Source of the DNA: Candidatus Hydrogenedentota bacterium
Lineage (GTDB): Bacteria; Hydrogenedentota; Hydrogenedentia; Hydrogenedentales; JAGMZX01
Assembly: GCA_029556545.1 (NCBI GenBank)
Contig: JAKQEQ010000099.1
Location: 1-22,594, forward strand
Direction of reading: 5' to 3'
DNA length: 22,594 nt
Both the position numbers and the translations under genes were made by a program. The notes under the pieces were generated by a model that had not been told where the DNA came from, searched no databases, and worked only from the letters and a program-made list of their open reading frames with translations. Shown here one piece after another: positions 3,358 through 22,594 of this stretch; within the stretch, counting starts at the first letter, position 1, and every line of letters starts with the position of its first letter.

Positions 3358-5907
3358 ATGAATTACTCGATAGCAGGTCTAGTCCTCGCACTGGCTAGTC
3401 TGTCCGTGCAGGCGGCCCACGCCGCAACGACACAAAAACATTATTACGCGCACCCCGCCACAGAAGACGCGAACGGTGTCATCGCGCCGTGGTATCAGGG
3501 ACTCAACGGCCAACTGGACTTCCGTCTCCGGGTGTCCGCCGAAACCCTCAAACGCTACCCGTGGGTTAACACGGACGCGGCCGTCATGGCCGCCCCCCAT
3601 TTCGTCTACACCTCGATGTGGAGTATCTCAGAGGACGGCGTTATCGGCGCGCCGCCACTCGAAGATTGGGCGTGCGGAGACCTTGGCCAGCGAACCGTCA
3701 GCGTAATAAACGCCTTCGCGGATTATTACCGCTATTCGGGAGATCCCGCCGCCGTCGCATTGCTCACGCTTCAGGCGGACTACATACTGGACTATGCATT
3801 GACGCCGCCCAATCATCCGTGGCCGAAATTCCCCATAAGTTGTCCCACAAAAGGAAAGCCTTACGGCGTGTGCGACCCGGAAGGCTTCATACAACTCGAC
3901 CTCTCGGCGGATATCGGCGCGGCGATACTCCGGGCCTTTCAAATTACGGGCGACGCCCGCTACCTGGACGCGGCGAAGCATTGGGGTGACCTGCTCGCCC
4001 AACACTGTGACCTCAGCCCCGGGGCCGCGCCATGGAACCGGTATGCAAATCCGAAAAATGTGCCATGGAGCAATCAGCTCGCCGGCAGCATTTCCATGAT
4101 CCTCCATTTCCTCGATCAACTTATCCGCCTTGGTCACACAGGTGATGATAACGCGATTGTTCGCGCCCGCGATGCCGGCCGCGCCCACCTCGATCGCACC
4201 TTGTTCCCGCGTTGGACCGCACCGGACACTTGGGGCCGCTGCTACTGGGACTGGGAGTGCCCGGTCTTCTCACTCGTCAGCGCATGGGCAATGAAATATG
4301 TTCTCGACCAGCGCGACGCCTTCCCGAGCTGGAGAACCGATGTGCGCAATGTCCTCACGTTGATTTTCAATCGCACCGGCGTGGACCCTGCATCCGCGGG
4401 CGAAGTCTACACCGGCGCGTGGGCTATCCCGGAATCACCCAGTTGTTGCGGCCTGTCGCTTTCGTATGGACAGCAACTCATCGCGGCGGGACTGGCCCAG
4501 TACGCCGCGACCACCGGCGACCCCTGGGCGCGTGAACTCGCCCGGCGCATGGCGATCCAGGGCTCGTATGACGCGCTCGACAACGGAACGGTCATCGACG
4601 GCATCACAGGCACGCCAATCGTGGCTGGATCGTGGCTGAACATAATCCATCCGCTCGCGATGCGACAGATGCTGCACGTGATCGCGTGGCTGCCGGACCT
4701 GTTCGCGCCCAATCGCGAGAATCACATCGTGCGGAGCGATGCCGAGGTGATCTCCGTCACCTATGGCAAGGGACATGTCGCATATACCACCTTTGATGCG
4801 CCCGATCGGACCACCGATGTGCTGCGATTGGCTTTCGTGCCGGATCGCGTCACCGCGGACGGGCGGAATCTGGAGAAGCGAGGCAACCTCGATGCGAACG
4901 GGTACACGGTCGTCCCGTTGTCGAATGGCGATTGTATTGTCAGTGTTCGGCACGACGGACTCAGGAACATCGTCGTGGAAGGAGACGACCCTCAAACCGT
5001 CATCGACGTTGCGGCGCTGGCGTTCACCGGCCCTTGGGCCGACACGCCTCCTGAAAACGGCGGGCGCGTCAGCGAAGCGTCCGGCGCAACGATGGCGTGC
5101 TCCTTGGAAGGGAATCAGGTGCGCGTAATCGGCGGCGTCGATCCTTCGGGTGGCCGCGCCGATGTGTATATTGACGGCGAGAAAGCGCGGACCGGTATTG
5201 ACTGCTGGAACCCGACGACCCATCACGGCCAGGTACTCTTCGCACGAAGCGGCTTGAGCCCCGGACCACATGATCTGAAGATTGTCGTCCGCGGCGAGCG
5301 GAATCTCCGGTCCCAGGGAGACAAGGTCCGCATCGAGGGCGTGCAGTATTCCGCCGCGACGGGAGACAGCGGGTACGGTTCGGGCGAAGGCCCCACGGAT
5401 GCGCAGCGCATGGTGTTCGGCTATACGGGACGCGAGGACCTGCGCGATGCGGACGGGCAGCCTTGGAGACCGGCTACGGAATGGTTCGTGCGACTCGGGC
5501 GAGGCGCGGATTCCGTGGGCGAGGCGTGGTGGACCACGCCCGCCGAGGAGACAATCGCGGGTACCGCCTCGCAGGACCTCTACCGCTACGGCGTCCACGC
5601 GCCGGAATTTGTCGTGAACGTCACGGTTGCCCCCGGCGTCTACCGCGCGAGACTGTTGTTCGCCGCCACGCGCGACCTTAATACCGCAATCAACCGGGTC
5701 ACCGTCCTCATCAACGGGCAGGTCGCCTTTGACAAACTGGATGTCGCCGCGAAGGCCGGTGGCCCAAACCGCGCACTCGACTTGCACGTGGACTCCCTGA
5801 CCCCTCGCAACGGCGTCATAGAATTCCGCTTCATCGGCGGCGACAAGGATGCGGGCATCGCCGGAGACGCCTTCATACAAGCCCTGGAGGTAGCGCCCCA
5901 GAAATAG
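3358..5907 (+). CDS. Secreted alpha/alpha-barrel glycosidase-like protein with C-terminal malectin-like domain
   Basis: Residues 1-22 are a signal peptide ending AHA, so the 849-residue product is exported. Residues about 60-480 are rich in paired helices with Trp/Asp/Glu-rich loops (YYRYSGD, DLSADIGAAILRAF, CYWDWECP), typical of an (alpha/alpha)6 barrel such as GH127, GH88/105 or related enzymes. ESPSCC (359-364) recalls the Glu/Cys zinc site of GH127 but is not an exact match. Residues about 558-662 form a beta-sandwich ligand-binding module (DVYIDG, then LSPGPHDLKIVV). About 741-849 matches malectin-like sugar-binding domains (YRARLLFAATR, VLINGQVAFD). I start at 3358, not 3292, because GGGAGA and a signal peptide fit it. 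It probably cleaves or binds an extracellular glycan; the enzyme family is unassigned. It is followed 252 bases later by a symporter. Confidence 0.85.
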   Translation: MNYSIAGLVLALASLSVQAAHAATTQKHYYAHPATEDANGVIAPWYQGLNGQLDFRLRVSAETLKRYPWVNTDAAVMAAPHFVYTSMWSISEDGVIGAPPLEDWACGDLGQRTVSVINAFADYYRYSGDPAAVALLTLQADYILDYALTPPNHPWPKFPISCPTKGKPYGVCDPEGFIQLDLSADIGAAILRAFQITGDARYLDAAKHWGDLLAQHCDLSPGAAPWNRYANPKNVPWSNQLAGSISMILHFLDQLIRLGHTGDDNAIVRARDAGRAHLDRTLFPRWTAPDTWGRCYWDWECPVFSLVSAWAMKYVLDQRDAFPSWRTDVRNVLTLIFNRTGVDPASAGEVYTGAWAIPESPSCCGLSLSYGQQLIAAGLAQYAATTGDPWARELARRMAIQGSYDALDNGTVIDGITGTPIVAGSWLNIIHPLAMRQMLHVIAWLPDLFAPNRENHIVRSDAEVISVTYGKGHVAYTTFDAPDRTTDVLRLAFVPDRVTADGRNLEKRGNLDANGYTVVPLSNGDCIVSVRHDGLRNIVVEGDDPQTVIDVAALAFTGPWADTPPENGGRVSEASGATMACSLEGNQVRVIGGVDPSGGRADVYIDGEKARTGIDCWNPTTHHGQVLFARSGLSPGPHDLKIVVRGERNLRSQGDKVRIEGVQYSAATGDSGYGSGEGPTDAQRMVFGYTGREDLRDADGQPWRPATEWFVRLGRGADSVGEAWWTTPAEETIAGTASQDLYRYGVHAPEFVVNVTVAPGVYRARLLFAATRDLNTAINRVTVLINGQVAFDKLDVAAKAGGPNRALDLHVDSLTPRNGVIEFRFIGGDKDAGIAGDAFIQALEVAPQK

Positions 5908-15356: not shown

Positions 15357-15482
15357 GAAGTGGAGCAGGCGCGGATATCCTGTGTCGCTAAAGACCGTTA
15401 CGTGCCGCGTCGAGTCCAAGACGACGATCGGGCTCAGCGGCAAGCCACAATTGCAGCAGATGCATTTGGGAAAGACTTTCGA

Positions 15483-17786
15483 ATGGCGCGTCTTAGAATA
15501 GTTGCGGTGATCTTGCCCGTGTTGTTATCTCCTGCCGCGTGCGGGGAACACGCCGCGCCGGAATGGCGCGAAAACCCGCTCGTAACCGGCCGGCCCATCC
15601 TCTACGTGATGCGCAAACAGTACAAGCCCGACCACCACAACACCGAGACCATGTTCCAGACGAATGAGATCAATACCGCGAGTTTCGAGGGCGGTCATGC
15701 GCTGAAAACGGTCAACCTCAAGACCGGCGAAGTAAGAACCCTTGTCGATGCGCCGGAAGGCGGCATCCGCGACCCGGAAGTGCATTTCAGCGGCGAGAAG
15801 ATTGTCTTTTCCATGCGCAGGAACCGCGACGACGACTACCACATCTACGAGGTAAACGCCGACGGCACGAACCTGCGTCAACTGACCTCCGCGCCCGGCG
15901 TCTTCGATATCGATCCCATCTATCTGCCCGACGACACCATTGTGTTCTCGTCGTCGCGCGAGCCCAAGTATTGCATGTGCAACCGGCATATTATGGGCAA
16001 CTTGTTCCGAATGGACGCCGACGGCGCGAACATCATCCAGATCGGCAAGAGCACGCTGTTCGAGGGTCATCCCGCTCTCATGCCCGATGGCCGCGTGATC
16101 TACTCGCGCTGGGAATACGTTGACCGCAATTTCGGCGACGCGCACGGGCTGTGGACCGTTTACCCCGACGGGACGGCCCACGCCGTGTATTGGGGAAATA
16201 ATACGGCCTCGCCCGGCGCCGTGCTGAACGCCCGCCCCATACCCGGAACCGAGCAGGTGGTCTGCGTGTTCGGGTCCTGCCACGACCGCCCTTGGGGCGC
16301 AATCGCCGTCATCGACCGGCGACTGGGCCTCGATCTGCGCCCGCCGGTCGTGCGCACGTGGCCCACGGATGCCGTGAATCTCGTGAAGGACGGTTGGGAG
16401 AAGTTCGACGAGTATGCGCACCTGCGCATCAAGTACGAAGACCCGTTTCCGCTGAGCGACTCGCTCTTTCTTTGCTCGCGTATGACGGGCGACGGCGAAC
16501 AAACGGGCATCTACCTGCTCGACATGGCCGGCAACGAGGTCTTGCTCCACACGGACGGCCCGGGTTGTTTCGACCCGATGCCGCTCGCGCCGTCGCCGCG
16601 CCCGCCAGCCCTGCCGCTCCGTCGCGATTACGATAATGCCCCAGGATATTTCTACGTGGCCGACGTCTACCGGGGAACCCACATGCGGGGCGTTGCCCGC
16701 GGCGCCGTCAAGTCGCTGCGCGTGGTCGAGTCCCCCGAGAAAAGGTACTGGACCGACCTGCCGTGGGGCGGCCAGGGCATAGCCGCGCCCGCCATGCACT
16801 GGCACGAATTCAACAACAAGCGCATCCTCGGCGTCGTGCCCGTCGAAGAAGACGGATCCGCCTATTTCGCCGTGCCCGCGGACACGTTCGTGTATTTCCA
16901 GTTGCTCGACAAGGACGGCATGATGATTCAGTCGATGCGCAGCGGGACCCTCATCCAGTCGGGCGAAACACAAGGTTGCGTCGGCTGCCACGAAGATCGG
17001 CGGGAAGCGCCCGCAGCCGCGCGCAGCGTCCCGCTCGCAATGCGGCGACCGCCCAGCGTGTTGAACGACTGGTACGGCCCGCCGCGACTCTTCAGTTACC
17101 TCGCCGAGGTCCAACCCGTCTTCGACAGGCACTGCGTCCGCTGTCATGACTACGGCAAGGAAGCGGGAGAAACGCTGAACCTTTCCGGTGACCGGACGAC
17201 GGTGTTCAACACGTCCTATGACGAATTGTGGCGCAAGAAATACTTAGCCGCAATCGGGGCCGGCCCCGCCGCGATACAACCCGCGCTGTCGTGGGGCGCG
17301 CGGAAGAGCCGCCTGATCACGAAAATCTGCGAACACGCGGAAATCGATCCCGAAGGCTGGGACCGCCTGATTACCTGGATTGATATCAACGCGCCGTACT
17401 ACCCGAGTTACGCCTCGGCCTATCCCGAGGGTCTCGCCGGGCGCTGCCCGCTGACCGCTGAGGAAGTGGAGACATTGCACCGATTGACCGGTATCCCCTT
17501 TGCCGACCAACTGGCGTGGAACACGTATCCGGGCCCGCGGATCAACTTCGACCGACCCGCGTTGAGCACTTGCCTGCGGGAGATTCGCGACGATGACCAA
17601 CGCCGGCAAGCGCAGGACATCATCGAAAGGGGCAAGGCGCGACTGGACGCGCGTCCCCGGGGCGATCTCCCCGAGTTCTTGTTCTGTGAGAGGGACCAGG
17701 CGCGCGAGGCCAAGTACCAGACGCGCCGCGCCATCGAGCTGAGAAACCGCCAAGCCCTGCGCGACGGCATCAAGAACTACGATTGA
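15483..17786 (+). CDS. HzsA-related beta-propeller dihaem cytochrome c lipoprotein-like protein
   Basis: The 767-residue product begins with a short signal ending LLSPAAC (Cys20, a loose lipobox). Residues about 35-400 contain TolB/PD40-type propeller blades (DPIYLPDDTIVFSSSRE, GHPALMPDGRVIYSRW). Two c-type haem sites follow, CVGCH at 499-503 and CVRCH at 551-555. This order (propeller, then two haem domains) matches the hydrazine synthase alpha-subunit-related family, widespread in planctomycete-type genomes that do not make hydrazine. In true HzsA, as I recall it, a Tyr four residues after the first CxxCH His binds the haem; here that position is Arg507, arguing against hydrazine synthesis. 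It is likely a periplasmic or envelope electron-transfer or redox enzyme of unknown substrate. I prefer ATG 15483 to the GTG at 15360 because the signal peptide begins there, although its ribosome site (GGGAAAG) is modest. Confidence 0.88.
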   Translation: MARLRIVAVILPVLLSPAACGEHAAPEWRENPLVTGRPILYVMRKQYKPDHHNTETMFQTNEINTASFEGGHALKTVNLKTGEVRTLVDAPEGGIRDPEVHFSGEKIVFSMRRNRDDDYHIYEVNADGTNLRQLTSAPGVFDIDPIYLPDDTIVFSSSREPKYCMCNRHIMGNLFRMDADGANIIQIGKSTLFEGHPALMPDGRVIYSRWEYVDRNFGDAHGLWTVYPDGTAHAVYWGNNTASPGAVLNARPIPGTEQVVCVFGSCHDRPWGAIAVIDRRLGLDLRPPVVRTWPTDAVNLVKDGWEKFDEYAHLRIKYEDPFPLSDSLFLCSRMTGDGEQTGIYLLDMAGNEVLLHTDGPGCFDPMPLAPSPRPPALPLRRDYDNAPGYFYVADVYRGTHMRGVARGAVKSLRVVESPEKRYWTDLPWGGQGIAAPAMHWHEFNNKRILGVVPVEEDGSAYFAVPADTFVYFQLLDKDGMMIQSMRSGTLIQSGETQGCVGCHEDRREAPAAARSVPLAMRRPPSVLNDWYGPPRLFSYLAEVQPVFDRHCVRCHDYGKEAGETLNLSGDRTTVFNTSYDELWRKKYLAAIGAGPAAIQPALSWGARKSRLITKICEHAEIDPEGWDRLITWIDINAPYYPSYASAYPEGLAGRCPLTAEEVETLHRLTGIPFADQLAWNTYPGPRINFDRPALSTCLREIRDDDQRRQAQDIIERGKARLDARPRGDLPEFLFCERDQAREAKYQTRRAIELRNRQALRDGIKNYD

Positions 17787-17811: not shown

Positions 17812-17927
17812 ATCCCCCGGGGACTGCCACAAGCGACCCCGCGCCACAATGCGGACTGGCACAAGCGAGTCTTCGAGACGTGCCTGTCCCCGATCCCCCG
17901 GGGGGGAGACGTGCCCGTCCCCGACCC
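17812..17927. repeat. REP-like bulged palindrome array between convergent genes
   Basis: The 141-base gap between the dihaem gene and the GH2 gene is almost filled by related repeats. GGACTGGCAC (17853-17862) pairs with GTGCCTGTCC (17880-17889) at nine of ten positions. Inside is GTCT-TCG-AGAC (17869-17879), leaving AAGCGA as a one-sided bulge. The left arm recurs as GGACTGCCACAAGCGA at 17821-17836. The right arm GAGACGTGCCTGTCCCCGA (17875-17893) recurs at 17906-17924 with one change. ATCCCCCGGGG occurs at 17812 and 17893. This is the architecture of REP/RAYT-type interspersed palindromes; no RAYT transposase is in the window. It could also end transcription from both sides. Confidence 0.7.
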
Positions 17928-20900
17928 TCACGGGACTGCGACAACGACATCCAGTTCCGCAAGCGACGCCCAGGGGTGATCCGGATGAATCGGGCTGATC
18001 GCCGCAAGCTTTAGATAGCGCCCCTTGCGGGTCTGCGCGAAACGTACCGTTTCCGGTTTTCCCGCTCGCCCAAACCGCCCTGCGGCGCACGGCGGCCCCC
18101 ACTCCCCCGGCGAGTCGCTGACATACACTTCGTAGCGGCCAATATGGCCGTTGTTCATGTCCGGCCGCGGGGTTACACGGATCCCGGCCAACTCGACGCA
18201 GGTCTGCATATCGACGATCAACCAATGAGGATACGGCGCCGGCTGCGGCTCCCACGCGCTGTGCCACATCGTATTCGGGTTGTCGTCCAATACGTTTGCC
18301 GCCCCGAATCCCGGCTGCTCGCTGTCCGCCGTCGCCCGCGCGCGTAAGCGCCGCAGCACCGGCGGATCGCGGAACAACGCCTGCACCGCGGCCCCGTCGC
18401 CCCCGACACACGGTGCGAATTCGTCGGACGCCATGTAGTCGAGGATGCTGCGCCGCATCTGGCGCGCCACCGGACGATGCGCAAGATCGGTTTCGAGATC
18501 GCACCCGCAGATCAGCAGCGAACCGCCGTTCACGCGTAGTTCAAGAATCAACCCGAGGCGCCGGTTCGTCACCCAGTCGTCAATCACGCGCACGACGGGC
18601 TCCAGCTCTTTCGGAAGCGCGTTCAATATAAGAATCTGGCTGTTGTGCACGAGGTCCCACCACTGCCAGTTACTGTGAAATTCCGTCGGAAACGCCCTCA
18701 AGGCGGGATGCCCCGGATCGCAGAGCAGCCCGAGCGTGTGCGGCGCCTGAAATCCGGTCCACAACGTGTTCCAGAAGATGGGCGACCACCCGGCCGGAAC
18801 CGTTCCCGCCGCGTCGCCCCGCACGGACCCCGGCTCAGGCAACAGCAACACCCTTCCGCCCGACGCCAGCGTCTTCAGCGCGTCCTCGTCCAGGCACCGC
18901 GCCACGTGAACTCCATCCGGCGTTTCCGTCGAAACGTCGCGAGGATACACCCATATATCCCAGGCATTGGCGGCCTCGGCTTCGGGAAGCGAAATCTCAA
19001 TCACGTAATTCCCGGGCGCGGGCAAGTCCCCAAGCGCAATCTCAATTCGGCCAAGCGGGACCGCCGTGCCCCGCTGGATGGTGCGTGCCGGCCACTCGCC
19101 TTGATCCATGATATTGCCATCAACCCCGGCGAGCGTCCAGCGTGCCGCGGTATTCTCCAAGGGGGCCGGGCCGTAGTGGGTCACTTCGGCGTCTCCGACG
19201 AAGGTCTCGCTCGCGACCCATACACATTTGTCCATGCGCAACAGCGGCGCCGTCGGCCCGGCGAAGCGCCGGTATTCCGCATACGTGATGTAACCCTTCT
19301 CGTCCCAAAATGGATCCAGCACGCCCACCAGGGCCGTGCCTTGCCCGGGGAAGTCGTGCAGGTCAAGCAATTGAAAACCGCCGAAGCCCCGCGTGCGCAG
19401 CGCCGCCTCGATTTCCTCCTTATAGCAGATCGCCTGAAGCTTGCCCGACGCCATCAGAAATGCTTGCGCCAGTTCTCCCATCCCGTTCTTTTCCAGGGTA
19501 TCTCGGAAGATTTCAAAATTGCGCGGCTTGAGCGGACCCGTGTATTTCCGCATCTCATCGAAATTCGGATACACGCACCATTGACCGATCTCGTGGCTCA
19601 CCACCGGCACACTCTGTTCAGCAACAAAATCCCCGTAGTCGACACGCGAATTGAAGGGTTCCGCGTTATAGCGGCACTTGAGCCCCCCGCCCCAGGAATG
19701 CACGCGCGGCGCCGGCGTCACGTGATACTGGTTCTCGGGGATCTCCGGCCATCCGGACGCGGCGGTATACAACCGGCGCGGGTCGGACGTCTTCCAGCGT
19801 TCCACGAGTTCCCCGAGAAACGCTTTCTGATTCCGTCCGGCCGGTTCGTTCCCGTAAGCTAACAGGCAGAATGAGGGATGGTTGCCGTAAGCGCGAAGTA
19901 TGCGGTCGATCTCGTCACGGATATACTCGTCGATCGCCCCGCCGTCGCCTACCTTCGTCCAGAAGGGTCCTTCCACCTGGAACATGAACCCCAACTGGTC
20001 CGCCGCATCGAACGCCGCTTCCGGCGGACACCACGAGTGAAACCGCAAGTGGTTCAACCCGCAAGCCCGCGCCTTGAGCATCAGGGTTTTCCAGGAATGT
20101 GCGTCCGTCGGCGGATAACCGGTCTTCGGGAAAATGCAGCACTCAAGCGTGCCGCGAAGGAATAGCTTCTCGCCGTTCATAGCGAACTGCGTCCCCTCGA
20201 CCCTGATTTCGCGCATCCCAAAATTCGCGGTGCGCGTGTCGCGATACGCAGCGCCGCCGCCCGTTCCGGAGAGCGTAGCAGTCATTTCGTAAAGCGCGGG
20301 ATGGAACTCACTCCAGGTCTCGAAACGCCCGCCAAAGGGATACTCGATCTCAAGAAGCGCCAGCCCTTTTTCGGAGACTTCGACCGCCACGGTGTATGGC
20401 GCGTGATGCGACGGGACAGTCCGCTCCGCCGGAACGTTCCAGAGGCGCGCCGCCAACGCGATCGTGCCGGTCACTTCCCGCTCTGTTTCGTTCGCCAATT
20501 CCAGACGAACACGGGCGCATTTCCGTTCAAGGTCGGGATATACCTGCATGTCCCGGATATGGACCGGATCAACCGCCCGCAGTTCCATCCGGCCCACAAT
20601 CCCGTTCCAGTTCGATTGCGTGTTATCCGACACGCTGTGCGCGTCTCGTCCGACGTCGATCTTGACCGTATTGTCCATCCGAATCGTGATCGTGTGCCTG
20701 CCCGGTAAGAGCGTATCGCTCAGATCATATTCATGCGGCACAGACAAACTGTTCCGCATGCCGCGGAATTGGCCGTCCACCCACACCTGTGTCTCCCAAT
20801 GACACCGTTCGAGAAAGAGCATCACCCGCTTGCCGCGATAGCTTTCGGGAACCTCGATGTCGCGCTGATACCACGCCGGCCCGACGTAGTACTTGTCCGG

Positions 20901-21227
20901 CTGCAGCCAGAACGGCGCCTTCACGTTGCCCGGTTCGCGATACGGCGCAAAGGCGTCCTTCGCATGCCCCAAGTCGCGCACGGTGCCCGTCCACGGCGTA
21001 TCCATCGTCACCTCCTCCCCGTAACCGCCCTCGTTCATCGATCCGGGCAGACGGATTGCCTGCGCCAGCGGCCGCTGAAACCACCCTTCCCGCACGCCTG
21101 CGTCCCCCGGGCCCATTTGAAACCCCCACGTCCCCGCCAGGGAAACAATAGGCGGCGTCTCCTGCCCAATCGCCGCTTGTCGCGCAAAAACTACCGACGT
21201 CATTACTCCCCATAACACGATGCGCAT
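17928..21227 (-). CDS. Secreted multidomain GH2 glycosidase (beta-galactosidase-like) with discoidin domain
   Basis: The 1099-residue product has a weak signal peptide (1-22). Residues about 25-220 form the GH2 jelly-roll sugar-binding domain (PAWYQRDIEVP, VWVDGQFRG), 220-340 an Ig-like sandwich and 345-640 the TIM barrel. AYGNEPAG contains the likely acid/base Glu461 and VSHEIGQW the likely nucleophile Glu546. HSWCPPEAAFDAADQLGF (398-415) is typical of the barrel. About 690-950 holds a beta domain and a GATase-like module (LASGGRVLLLPEPG, then WWDLVHNSQILILNALP). About 960-1099 is an F5/8-type discoidin domain (ANVLDDNPNTMWHSAW). It should hydrolyse a beta-linked sugar (galactoside, glucuronide or mannoside) of an extracellular glycan. 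The ATG at 21227 follows GGGAG by seven bases; upstream extension to 21449 lacks family homology. Confidence 0.9.
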   Translation of the reverse strand: MRIVLWGVMTSVVFARQAAIGQETPPIVSLAGTWGFQMGPGDAGVREGWFQRPLAQAIRLPGSMNEGGYGEEVTMDTPWTGTVRDLGHAKDAFAPYREPGNVKAPFWLQPDKYYVGPAWYQRDIEVPESYRGKRVMLFLERCHWETQVWVDGQFRGMRNSLSVPHEYDLSDTLLPGRHTITIRMDNTVKIDVGRDAHSVSDNTQSNWNGIVGRMELRAVDPVHIRDMQVYPDLERKCARVRLELANETEREVTGTIALAARLWNVPAERTVPSHHAPYTVAVEVSEKGLALLEIEYPFGGRFETWSEFHPALYEMTATLSGTGGGAAYRDTRTANFGMREIRVEGTQFAMNGEKLFLRGTLECCIFPKTGYPPTDAHSWKTLMLKARACGLNHLRFHSWCPPEAAFDAADQLGFMFQVEGPFWTKVGDGGAIDEYIRDEIDRILRAYGNHPSFCLLAYGNEPAGRNQKAFLGELVERWKTSDPRRLYTAASGWPEIPENQYHVTPAPRVHSWGGGLKCRYNAEPFNSRVDYGDFVAEQSVPVVSHEIGQWCVYPNFDEMRKYTGPLKPRNFEIFRDTLEKNGMGELAQAFLMASGKLQAICYKEEIEAALRTRGFGGFQLLDLHDFPGQGTALVGVLDPFWDEKGYITYAEYRRFAGPTAPLLRMDKCVWVASETFVGDAEVTHYGPAPLENTAARWTLAGVDGNIMDQGEWPARTIQRGTAVPLGRIEIALGDLPAPGNYVIEISLPEAEAANAWDIWVYPRDVSTETPDGVHVARCLDEDALKTLASGGRVLLLPEPGSVRGDAAGTVPAGWSPIFWNTLWTGFQAPHTLGLLCDPGHPALRAFPTEFHSNWQWWDLVHNSQILILNALPKELEPVVRVIDDWVTNRRLGLILELRVNGGSLLICGCDLETDLAHRPVARQMRRSILDYMASDEFAPCVGGDGAAVQALFRDPPVLRRLRARATADSEQPGFGAANVLDDNPNTMWHSAWEPQPAPYPHWLIVDMQTCVELAGIRVTPRPDMNNGHIGRYEVYVSDSPGEWGPPCAAGRFGRAGKPETVRFAQTRKGRYLKLAAISPIHPDHPWASLAELDVVVAVP

Positions 21228-21282
21228 AGCCCGACTCCCATTCTTCTCGTGCCACCCGAAAACGGTGCGTCTTCTGCCTTGG

Positions 21283-21311
21283 CATAAAACACAACAATCA
21301 ACCGCTGCCAA
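21283..21311 (-). promoter_or_regulatory. Possible sigma70-type promoter for the GH2 gene
   Basis: On the minus strand TTGGCA (21311-21306) matches the -35 consensus at five of six positions. After 17 bases comes TTTATG (21288-21283), a weak -10 box (three of six). Transcription would begin near 21276, leaving a leader of about 50 bases before the start at 21227. Confidence 0.35.
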
Positions 21312-21398
21312 TGATCGGTGTAACACACCAGTCTTCCTCCTTGCCACTGCCCGTCCGCGAACCGTCCCGTAGCGCCCTGACCTTGCACGACGCCGCAC

Positions 21399-21415
21399 CG
21401 CAGTGCCACACTGCG
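21399..21415. promoter_or_regulatory. Perfect 7-bp hairpin in the leader of the rightmost gene
   Basis: CGCAGTG (21399-21405) and CACTGCG (21409-21415) pair around a three-base loop CCA. The element lies 25 bases before the start at 21441 and just upstream of its AAAGGTGA ribosome site. It could be an operator or leader hairpin; only the symmetry supports this. Confidence 0.35.
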
Positions 21416-21440
21416 TCAAGGAACTCAAAGGTGATCGGCC

Positions 21441-22594
21441 ATGAGACACGCCCTTCTCTCGATACTCTTCCTACTCGGCGTCATGTCTACCGGCTTCGCG
21501 GAAGACCTGTCGTTCAAGGATCCGTTGCGACAACGCCTGATCGATCAGGCCCCCGGACTACTTAAGTCCTTTGACGCCCCTACCGGGCATTTCGGCGAAG
21601 GCATCTGGATCGTGAACGACCAGCACCCCATGTACCCGCTCGCCGTGGCGTACGCGTTGGACATACCGGGAAATCCGTATCACAAGAGCGCGGAATTGCT
21701 CGAAGTCATTATGAAAGCGGGTGACGCGCTCATCGCGGATGCCGACGCGGACGGCAAGTGGGAATTCCGCAAGAAGGACGGCAGCACCTGGGGCACGATT
21801 CACATGCCGTGGACCTATTCGCGGTGGGTGCGCACGTTCGCGATCATCAAGGAGGACATGCCCCCGGACCGCCGCGAACGGTGGACCAAGGCACTGCTGC
21901 TCGGCTACGGCAATATCGCGAAGACCGCTTTGGGAAACGTTCACAACATCCCCGCCCATCACGCTATGGGGCTGTACGTCGCCGGTAAGTCGCTCGACCG
22001 TCCCGAGTGGTGCGATCAGGCCGCCGCATTCCTGCGGCGCGTGGCCTCGGATCAACGCGAAGGCGGCTACTGGTCGGAAGGCGCGGGACCGGTCGTGGCC
22101 TACAATTTCGTCTACGTCGACGCCCTGGGAACCTATTACGCGATCTCCGGAGACGCGGAAGTCCTTCCGACGCTCGAACGCGCCGCCGCCTTCCATCTCC
22201 GTTTCACGTACCCGAACGGGCACCGCGTCGAGACCATCGATCAGCGCAACCCGTATGATCCCGGCGTTAACGTCGGAAACGTCGGGTTCACGCTCACCGC
22301 CGCGGGCCGCGCGTATCTGCATCGACAATGGGCGCTGCGCGGTATCGAGCATTTGGACACAGACTTGATCGCATCGCTGCTGCTCTATGGGAAGGAAGGC
22401 CCGACCGCGCCGGAGAGCGCGGCTACGGGGCAGTTTCTCCTGGTCGAAGATGGCGTGCCGCGCGCCGCGACGCTGCGCCAGGAACCGTGGTTCGTGTGCC
22501 TGTCCGCCTACTGCGGCCCTGTCGAGCAGAACCGGTGGCTTCAGGATCGCCAGAACCTTGTCAGCGTCTACCATGACCGCACCGGCCTGATCCT
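21441..22594 (+). CDS. Secreted alpha/alpha-toroid protein, possibly heparinase- or lyase-like (3' end outside window)
   Basis: The frame is open from the ATG at 21441 to the window edge (384 full codons). Residues 1-20 form a clear signal peptide (LLSILFLLGVMSTGFA then E). The visible part is helix-rich with aromatic loops (MPWTYSRWVRTFA, EGGYWSEGAGPVVAYNF). NVHNIPAHHAMGLYVAG at 166-182 recalls the Asn/His loop of heparinase II/III-type and related polysaccharide lyases with an (alpha/alpha) toroid. A C-terminal beta-sandwich would be expected but is beyond the edge. It may cleave an acidic polysaccharide, but a glycosidase or non-catalytic toroid is equally possible on this sequence alone. 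AAAGGTGAT sits about five bases before the ATG. It is divergent from the GH2 gene across a 213-base intergenic region. Confidence 0.75.
   Translation, partial: MRHALLSILFLLGVMSTGFAEDLSFKDPLRQRLIDQAPGLLKSFDAPTGHFGEGIWIVNDQHPMYPLAVAYALDIPGNPYHKSAELLEVIMKAGDALIADADADGKWEFRKKDGSTWGTIHMPWTYSRWVRTFAIIKEDMPPDRRERWTKALLLGYGNIAKTALGNVHNIPAHHAMGLYVAGKSLDRPEWCDQAAAFLRRVASDQREGGYWSEGAGPVVAYNFVYVDALGTYYAISGDAEVLPTLERAAAFHLRFTYPNGHRVETIDQRNPYDPGVNVGNVGFTLTAAGRAYLHRQWALRGIEHLDTDLIASLLLYGKEGPTAPESAATGQFLLVEDGVPRAATLRQEPWFVCLSAYCGPVEQNRWLQDRQNLVSVYHDRTGLI

Follow-up and report, generated by a model that had tools for sequence, protein, structure and literature searches.

The region 17819-17947 of the window, which is the whole stretch of 22,594 nt analysed here from a Candidatus Hydrogenedentota bacterium, is made of pieces of one repeat family. 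The members of this family are probably non-autonomous REP-like mobile palindromes with a shell derived from terminal inverted repeats (TIRs), moved in trans by a Y1 transposase that is encoded on contig C101 of the same genome. The preliminary description placed a bulged palindrome array at 17812-17927, and all the pieces that it named (arms, bulge, inner hairpin and duplicated arms) are present in the sequence, although the real span reaches 20 nt further right. In the proposed mechanism, each element would be a minimal terminal inverted repeat pair (GGGGACTGGCAC-AAGCGA / GAGAC-GTGCCTGTCCCC) closed by a replaceable inner hairpin. The C101 transposase would recognize the folded shell on single-stranded DNA, cut at the foot of the shell and re-join the element elsewhere without target duplication, and copies would spread in trans. 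The GATCCC just after the element, read on the bottom strand as a 5'-GATC foot, may act as guide or target.

The array lies in the gap between two convergent genes. The left neighbour is an 808-aa ORF on the forward strand (15360-17786, stop codon at 17784-17786), and the right neighbour is a GH2 gene on the reverse strand (17928-21449) with a Pfam Glyco_hydro_2 match and a C-terminal F5/8 type C domain. In the left ORF, PD40 repeats are combined with the middle domain of hydrazine synthase alpha (HZS_alpha, PF18582, 116.7 bits), here in a Hydrogenedentota genome. The centre of the array is an intact short-type element at 17851-17891 on the forward strand, GCGGACTGGCAC-AAGCGA-GTCTTC-GAGAC-GTGCCTGTCCCC, which departs from the consensus at its second base alone and scores 59.2 bits under the covariance model (E 1.1e-10 genome-wide). 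Its arms are GGACTGGCAC (17853-17862) and GTGCCTGTCC (17880-17889); the ten-base arm pair described earlier exists but is not perfect, with 9 of 10 positions paired and one T-T mismatch. The one-sided AAGCGA bulge lies at 17863-17868 and the inner hairpin GTCT/AGAC at 17869-17872/17876-17879, both as first described.

The intact element lies within an older, broken one, which is also on the forward strand. The left half of the older element (17819-17844) consists of GGGGACTGCCACAAGCGA, with 17 of the 18 bases of the left shell, and CCCCGCGC, which is the start of a CCCCGCG...CGCGGGG inner hairpin and is shared with about 15 other copies. The right half (17900-17922) consists of CGGGGGGGAGAC and GTGCCCGTCCCC, partly overlapping the GATCCCCCGG flank, and is a direct repeat of 17875-17903 (83%) and an inverted repeat of 17818-17830 (85%). 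The duplicated arms are at 17819-17836 on the left and 17911-17922 on the right. The repeats had been said to run to the last base before the GH2 stop codon, and position 17927 does abut the TGA (17930-17928), but a third arm remnant lies beyond it: CGGGACTGCGACAACGA, a decayed left-arm fragment at 17931-17947 on the forward strand, inside the last GH2 codons and 92% identical to the arm at 17820-17832. From the way the pieces are ordered, the younger copy is read as lying inside the older one, and the window array would thus be a nested pair. A short-type copy would have inserted into the loop of an older, CCCCGCG-type element within the convergent gap, and the array would have no necessary role at this site.

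The same sequences are abundant in the genome, whose assembly has 195 contigs and an estimated contamination of 4.3%. The 16-mer GGACTGGCACAAGCGA occurs in 53 exact copies, against 0.005 expected by composition and none in the reversed control; the arm GGGGACWGGCAC occurs 123 times and a strict pattern finds 47 complete shells, both with a control of 0. A covariance model built from 24 copies recovers at least 77 copies among the 150 candidates scored, and the family occurs at unrelated sites on dozens of contigs. The common shell, GGGGACTGGCAC-AAGCGA...GAGAC-GTGCCTGTCCCC, is nearly invariant and surrounds an inner hairpin. Folded as single-stranded DNA, it forms a stem of GGGGAC, the T-T mismatch and GGCAC, followed by the internal loop AAGCGA/GAGAC and by the inner hairpin. 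None of the four main element types has a stop codon in any of the six frames. Rfam covariance models give no match to the element up to E = 1, which rules out a known structured RNA family.

The inner hairpin differs between copies in blocks: GTCTTC is found in 11 copies, CCCCGCGCTTCGCGGGG in 8, GCGAGTCTTCGAGC in 6, CCCCGCGCCGCGCGGGG in 5 and GTCCGCCGCAGGCGGAC in 3, and the remaining inner hairpins are singletons of up to 74 nt. This part of the element co-varies, with 18 double-changed cells, a number matched by none of 500 shuffles, and therefore its pairing is kept while its sequence differs between subfamilies. Free genomic hairpins as the identity of these inner parts were considered and ruled out, because CCCCGCGCTTCGCGGGG occurs 9 times in the genome, each time inside a model match; this confinement to elements indicates that subfamilies amplify as units. 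In some copies (L042:12667-12776, L029:2070-2149 and L054:2025-2105) the inner hairpin has a longer interior that ends in ...GGCGAAGGAGG and may represent another small repeat nested within the shell.

The mobility that was first proposed for this palindrome family is supported by a genome of the same genus, G001, in which orthologous sites are without the element. Three genes, encoding an alpha/beta hydrolase, an Ig-like protein (both names are a reading of the translations) and a third protein, have a plain reading frame in G001, while the window genome reads through the insert in frame; the alpha/beta hydrolase gene contains two tandem copies there. A syntenic intergenic site in G001 also has no element, and no element was found at a shared site among the loci compared between the two genomes. 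The window neighbours are not adjacent in G001. Since the reading frames are intact in G001, insertion in the window genome is the simpler reading, loss in G001 being possible in principle. A first gene caller placed 15 of 46 copies inside genes, a count that was rejected; when coding signal is required on either side of the element, 4 of 47 remain, and three of these four are confirmed against G001. G001 itself has 28 model matches with a median of 50.7 bits, against 67.1 bits in the window genome (p 7e-6), in a comparison that favours the window genome because the model comes from its copies. In the draft assembly of G001, where gaps are possible, the transposase is represented by no more than fragments or distant relatives. 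These observations fit spread in the window genome and decay in G001.

The preliminary description also suggested that the array may be a bidirectional terminator, and the related explanation that the elements are terminators or mRNA-end stabilizers kept by selection in convergent gaps is unlikely. In its favour, REP hairpins can terminate transcripts or shield them (PMC3733652, PMC6006769), the hairpin is strong (z of -3.7 for the consensus short element) and the window copy is found between convergent genes. There is no T tract after the array, however, nor generally after the elements. Copies show no preference for convergent gaps (20 tandem, 4 convergent and 4 divergent contexts by a crude gene call), at least three lie inside open genes, and several are missing at orthologous sites. 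A local effect of the elements on transcripts is possible, and it is not what maintains the family.

The flanks of the elements are conserved on one side. On the right, position +1 is G or A and position +2 is A (43 of 48 copies, 1.79 bits), followed by T or C and by Cs, which together read GATCCC; on the left, conservation in 48 copies does not exceed 0.25 bits. On the bottom strand, 5'-GATC stands directly before the hairpin, at the position of GTAG in classical REPs. Insertions made by Y1 transposases of the IS200/IS605 kind have a one-sided, non-duplicated flank, and a long flanking direct duplication is found at only one of about 47 copies. This copy, L045:2054-2095 (contig C25, about 39,850-39,900), lies between 59-nt direct duplicates that are 96.6% identical. 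The GATC-like flank may be the guide or target sequence of the transposase.

The candidate transposase is one of five Y1_Tnp genes in the genome. It is encoded at C101:33385-34002 (205 aa from ATG; Pfam Y1_Tnp, 50.5 bits) and has intact elements on both sides, at 33226-33274, 110 nt before the ATG, and at 34012-34060, 9 nt after the stop codon. These two are in direct orientation, and inverted copies lie further out at 34164 and 35268, which gives four elements within 2.1 kb, an arrangement with a chance of about 2e-8. The protein has an HxH motif (HVH, residues 60-62) and Tyr119 in YTERNP (YxxxNP), and H60, H62, Y119 and N123 are invariant in 16 aligned relatives. Its best solved relative is TnpA-REP 4er8 (E 1e-7), which is reached only by a 16-row profile; the single protein has no phmmer match in the PDB. 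With the NCBIfam model REP_Tyr_transpos the protein reaches 71.8 bits, short of the RAYT equivalog cut-off (80) but far more than the 19.4 bits that it has with IS200. The C-terminal tail is shorter than in most relatives, and no HTH domain (Bac_DnaA_C, HTH_23 or HTH_28) is matched in this protein or in two scanned relatives. The 113-nt 5' leader of the gene is repeated on the same contig (78%; L016:3270-3383 and 4056-4169), in the stretch that separates the downstream element from the next inverted element, and looks like the remnant of a second unit that has lost its gene.

Passive palindrome duplication by slippage or gene conversion, with no transposase, could account for nested and tandem copies, such as those of the window, the two copies 61 nt apart in L014 and the 59-nt flanking duplication of L045, and also for inner hairpins replaced as blocks. 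It is nevertheless highly improbable, since copies are dispersed at unrelated sites with a common one-sided flank and cluster at a HuH transposase gene. The REP/RAYT type that was suggested at first is a different matter. Its general part holds, in that the palindrome is multi-copy and flanks a Y1 transposase gene, a positive outcome for both halves of the check first proposed, but membership of the classical REPs does not. A family of classical REPs or REPINs, mobilized by a canonical TnpA-REP (subclasses 2.2, 2.4, 2.5 and 2.7), would explain an imperfect bulged palindrome of high copy number with a RAYT nearby, and contig C36 encodes a suitable RAYT-like protein (96.8 bits to NF047646, cut-off 80) with one element 0.66 kb beyond the stop codon of its gene. 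There is no GT[AG]G at either foot, however, and the C36 element is at a distance and on one side only, unlike the C101 gene with its intact copies at both ends; this alternative is improbable. Movement in trans by the C101 transposase remains the preferred explanation.

Relatives of the C101 protein at 41-58% identity are found across many phyla. Both within the order and in other phyla, inverted repeats with GGGGACA or AGGGACAG, that is (G/A)GGGACA, accompany most intact loci of relatives; they usually lie about 54-65 nt upstream of the ATG and directly behind the stop codon. Because these relatives carry GGGGACA inverted repeats, the C101 transposase is probably a TIRYT, of the RAYT group 1 or TnpA-Y1 subclass 2.1 kind. 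Related shells with the same inner parts are single occurrences in four members of the order (G047, G052, G057 and G059). A fifth member, G056, has 23 copies of a cousin family with a different inner stem (e.g. C11:18158-18208), GGGGACTGGCTCG...CGTGCCTGTCCCC, in which A/T-rich inner stems vary around a conserved GGCAGTTTG loop. Over 3588 nt the RAYT locus of G056 is identical to a Candidatus Hydrogenedentota MAG record, which places the window genome in this phylum too.

Long direct, palindromic flanking copies are found at 4 of 5 short-tailed transposases and at 6 of the 85 others, a difference (Fisher p 4e-4) that is exploratory, chosen after the fact and confined to this sample. The short-tailed transposases do not form one clade. 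Short-tailed TIRYT relatives with direct or palindromic flanking repeats, and not single TIRs, are seen at L151, L153, L157 and L164, and such flanks apparently arose in several independent lineages. The arms GGGGACTGCC are in excess in two genomes with short-tailed genes (142 against 26 reversed in G026, 94 against 39 in G016) and not in three genomes with long-tailed genes; their count is also low in G037, whose own repeat has another arm. A broader idea is tentative and on balance doubtful. TIRYT (group 1) transposases may have repeatedly turned from IS-like elements with single TIRs into REP-type systems, with the tail shortened, the TIRs collapsed into one trans-spreading palindrome whose inner hairpin can be exchanged, and GTAG replaced as guide by a GATC-like foot. 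If true, this conversion would be an independent origin of REPs.

The general kind of repeat is known, and REP-like palindromes had been reported as lacking for this branch of transposases. Quentin et al. (2018) equate TIRYT with RAYT group 1 and TnpA-Y1 subclass 2.1, place the HTH domain of this subclass in the C-terminal tail and list no REP-like sequences near its genes (PMC6006769). The present family would give that branch a cognate, amplified palindrome, and it points to a possible route from a terminal inverted repeat to a REP. It shows REP-like palindromes entering protein genes in frame, and with its shell, its one-sided foot and an element-free sister genome, cleavage specificity is directly testable. 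No paper on such repeats in Hydrogenedentes was found in the literature.

Among known systems, the GTAG REPs, REPINs and BIMEs (REPtron, e.g. in E. coli) share with the present family a short, bulged, imperfect palindrome that is dispersed and mostly intergenic, one cognate transposase gene flanked by copies and a single-stranded-DNA transposase fold. They differ in the GT[AG]G tag, in place of which the present family has a conserved foot that is GATC-like on the other strand, and in their inverted doublets, the copies described here being mostly solitary or nested. CGTC-tagged palindromic repeats are also short and multi-copy but have no dedicated transposase (PMC3733652), whereas the present family has one and contains CGTC only internally, not as a terminal unpaired tag. 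The TIRYT 1152 repeats of S. maltophilia K279a are similar in being described as a self-complementary TIR family of many copies (PMC3733652).

The closest comparison is with the TIRYT transposases and TIRtrons of De Nocera et al. (2013), which have GGGG(A/T)(C/G)A(C/G) (GGGGWSAS) TIRs, some families of which are self-complementary and repeated in the genome (PMC3733652). Like these, the present system has a HuH-Y1 transposase with Y---NP, whose homologues have inverted repeats about 55 nt upstream of the ATG and directly behind the stop codon. The right arm, reverse-complemented as GGGGACAG, fits GGGGWSAS, while the left arm, GGGGACTG, departs from it at one position. Unlike in TIRtrons, every single repeat forms a full palindrome, whose two ends differ and whose inner hairpin can be swapped, the C101 gene is bounded by direct complete palindromes and not by single inverted repeats, and the C-terminal tail of its product is shortened. 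Judged by their sequence, the arms of the window family are the TIRYT TIR motif folded into one palindrome.
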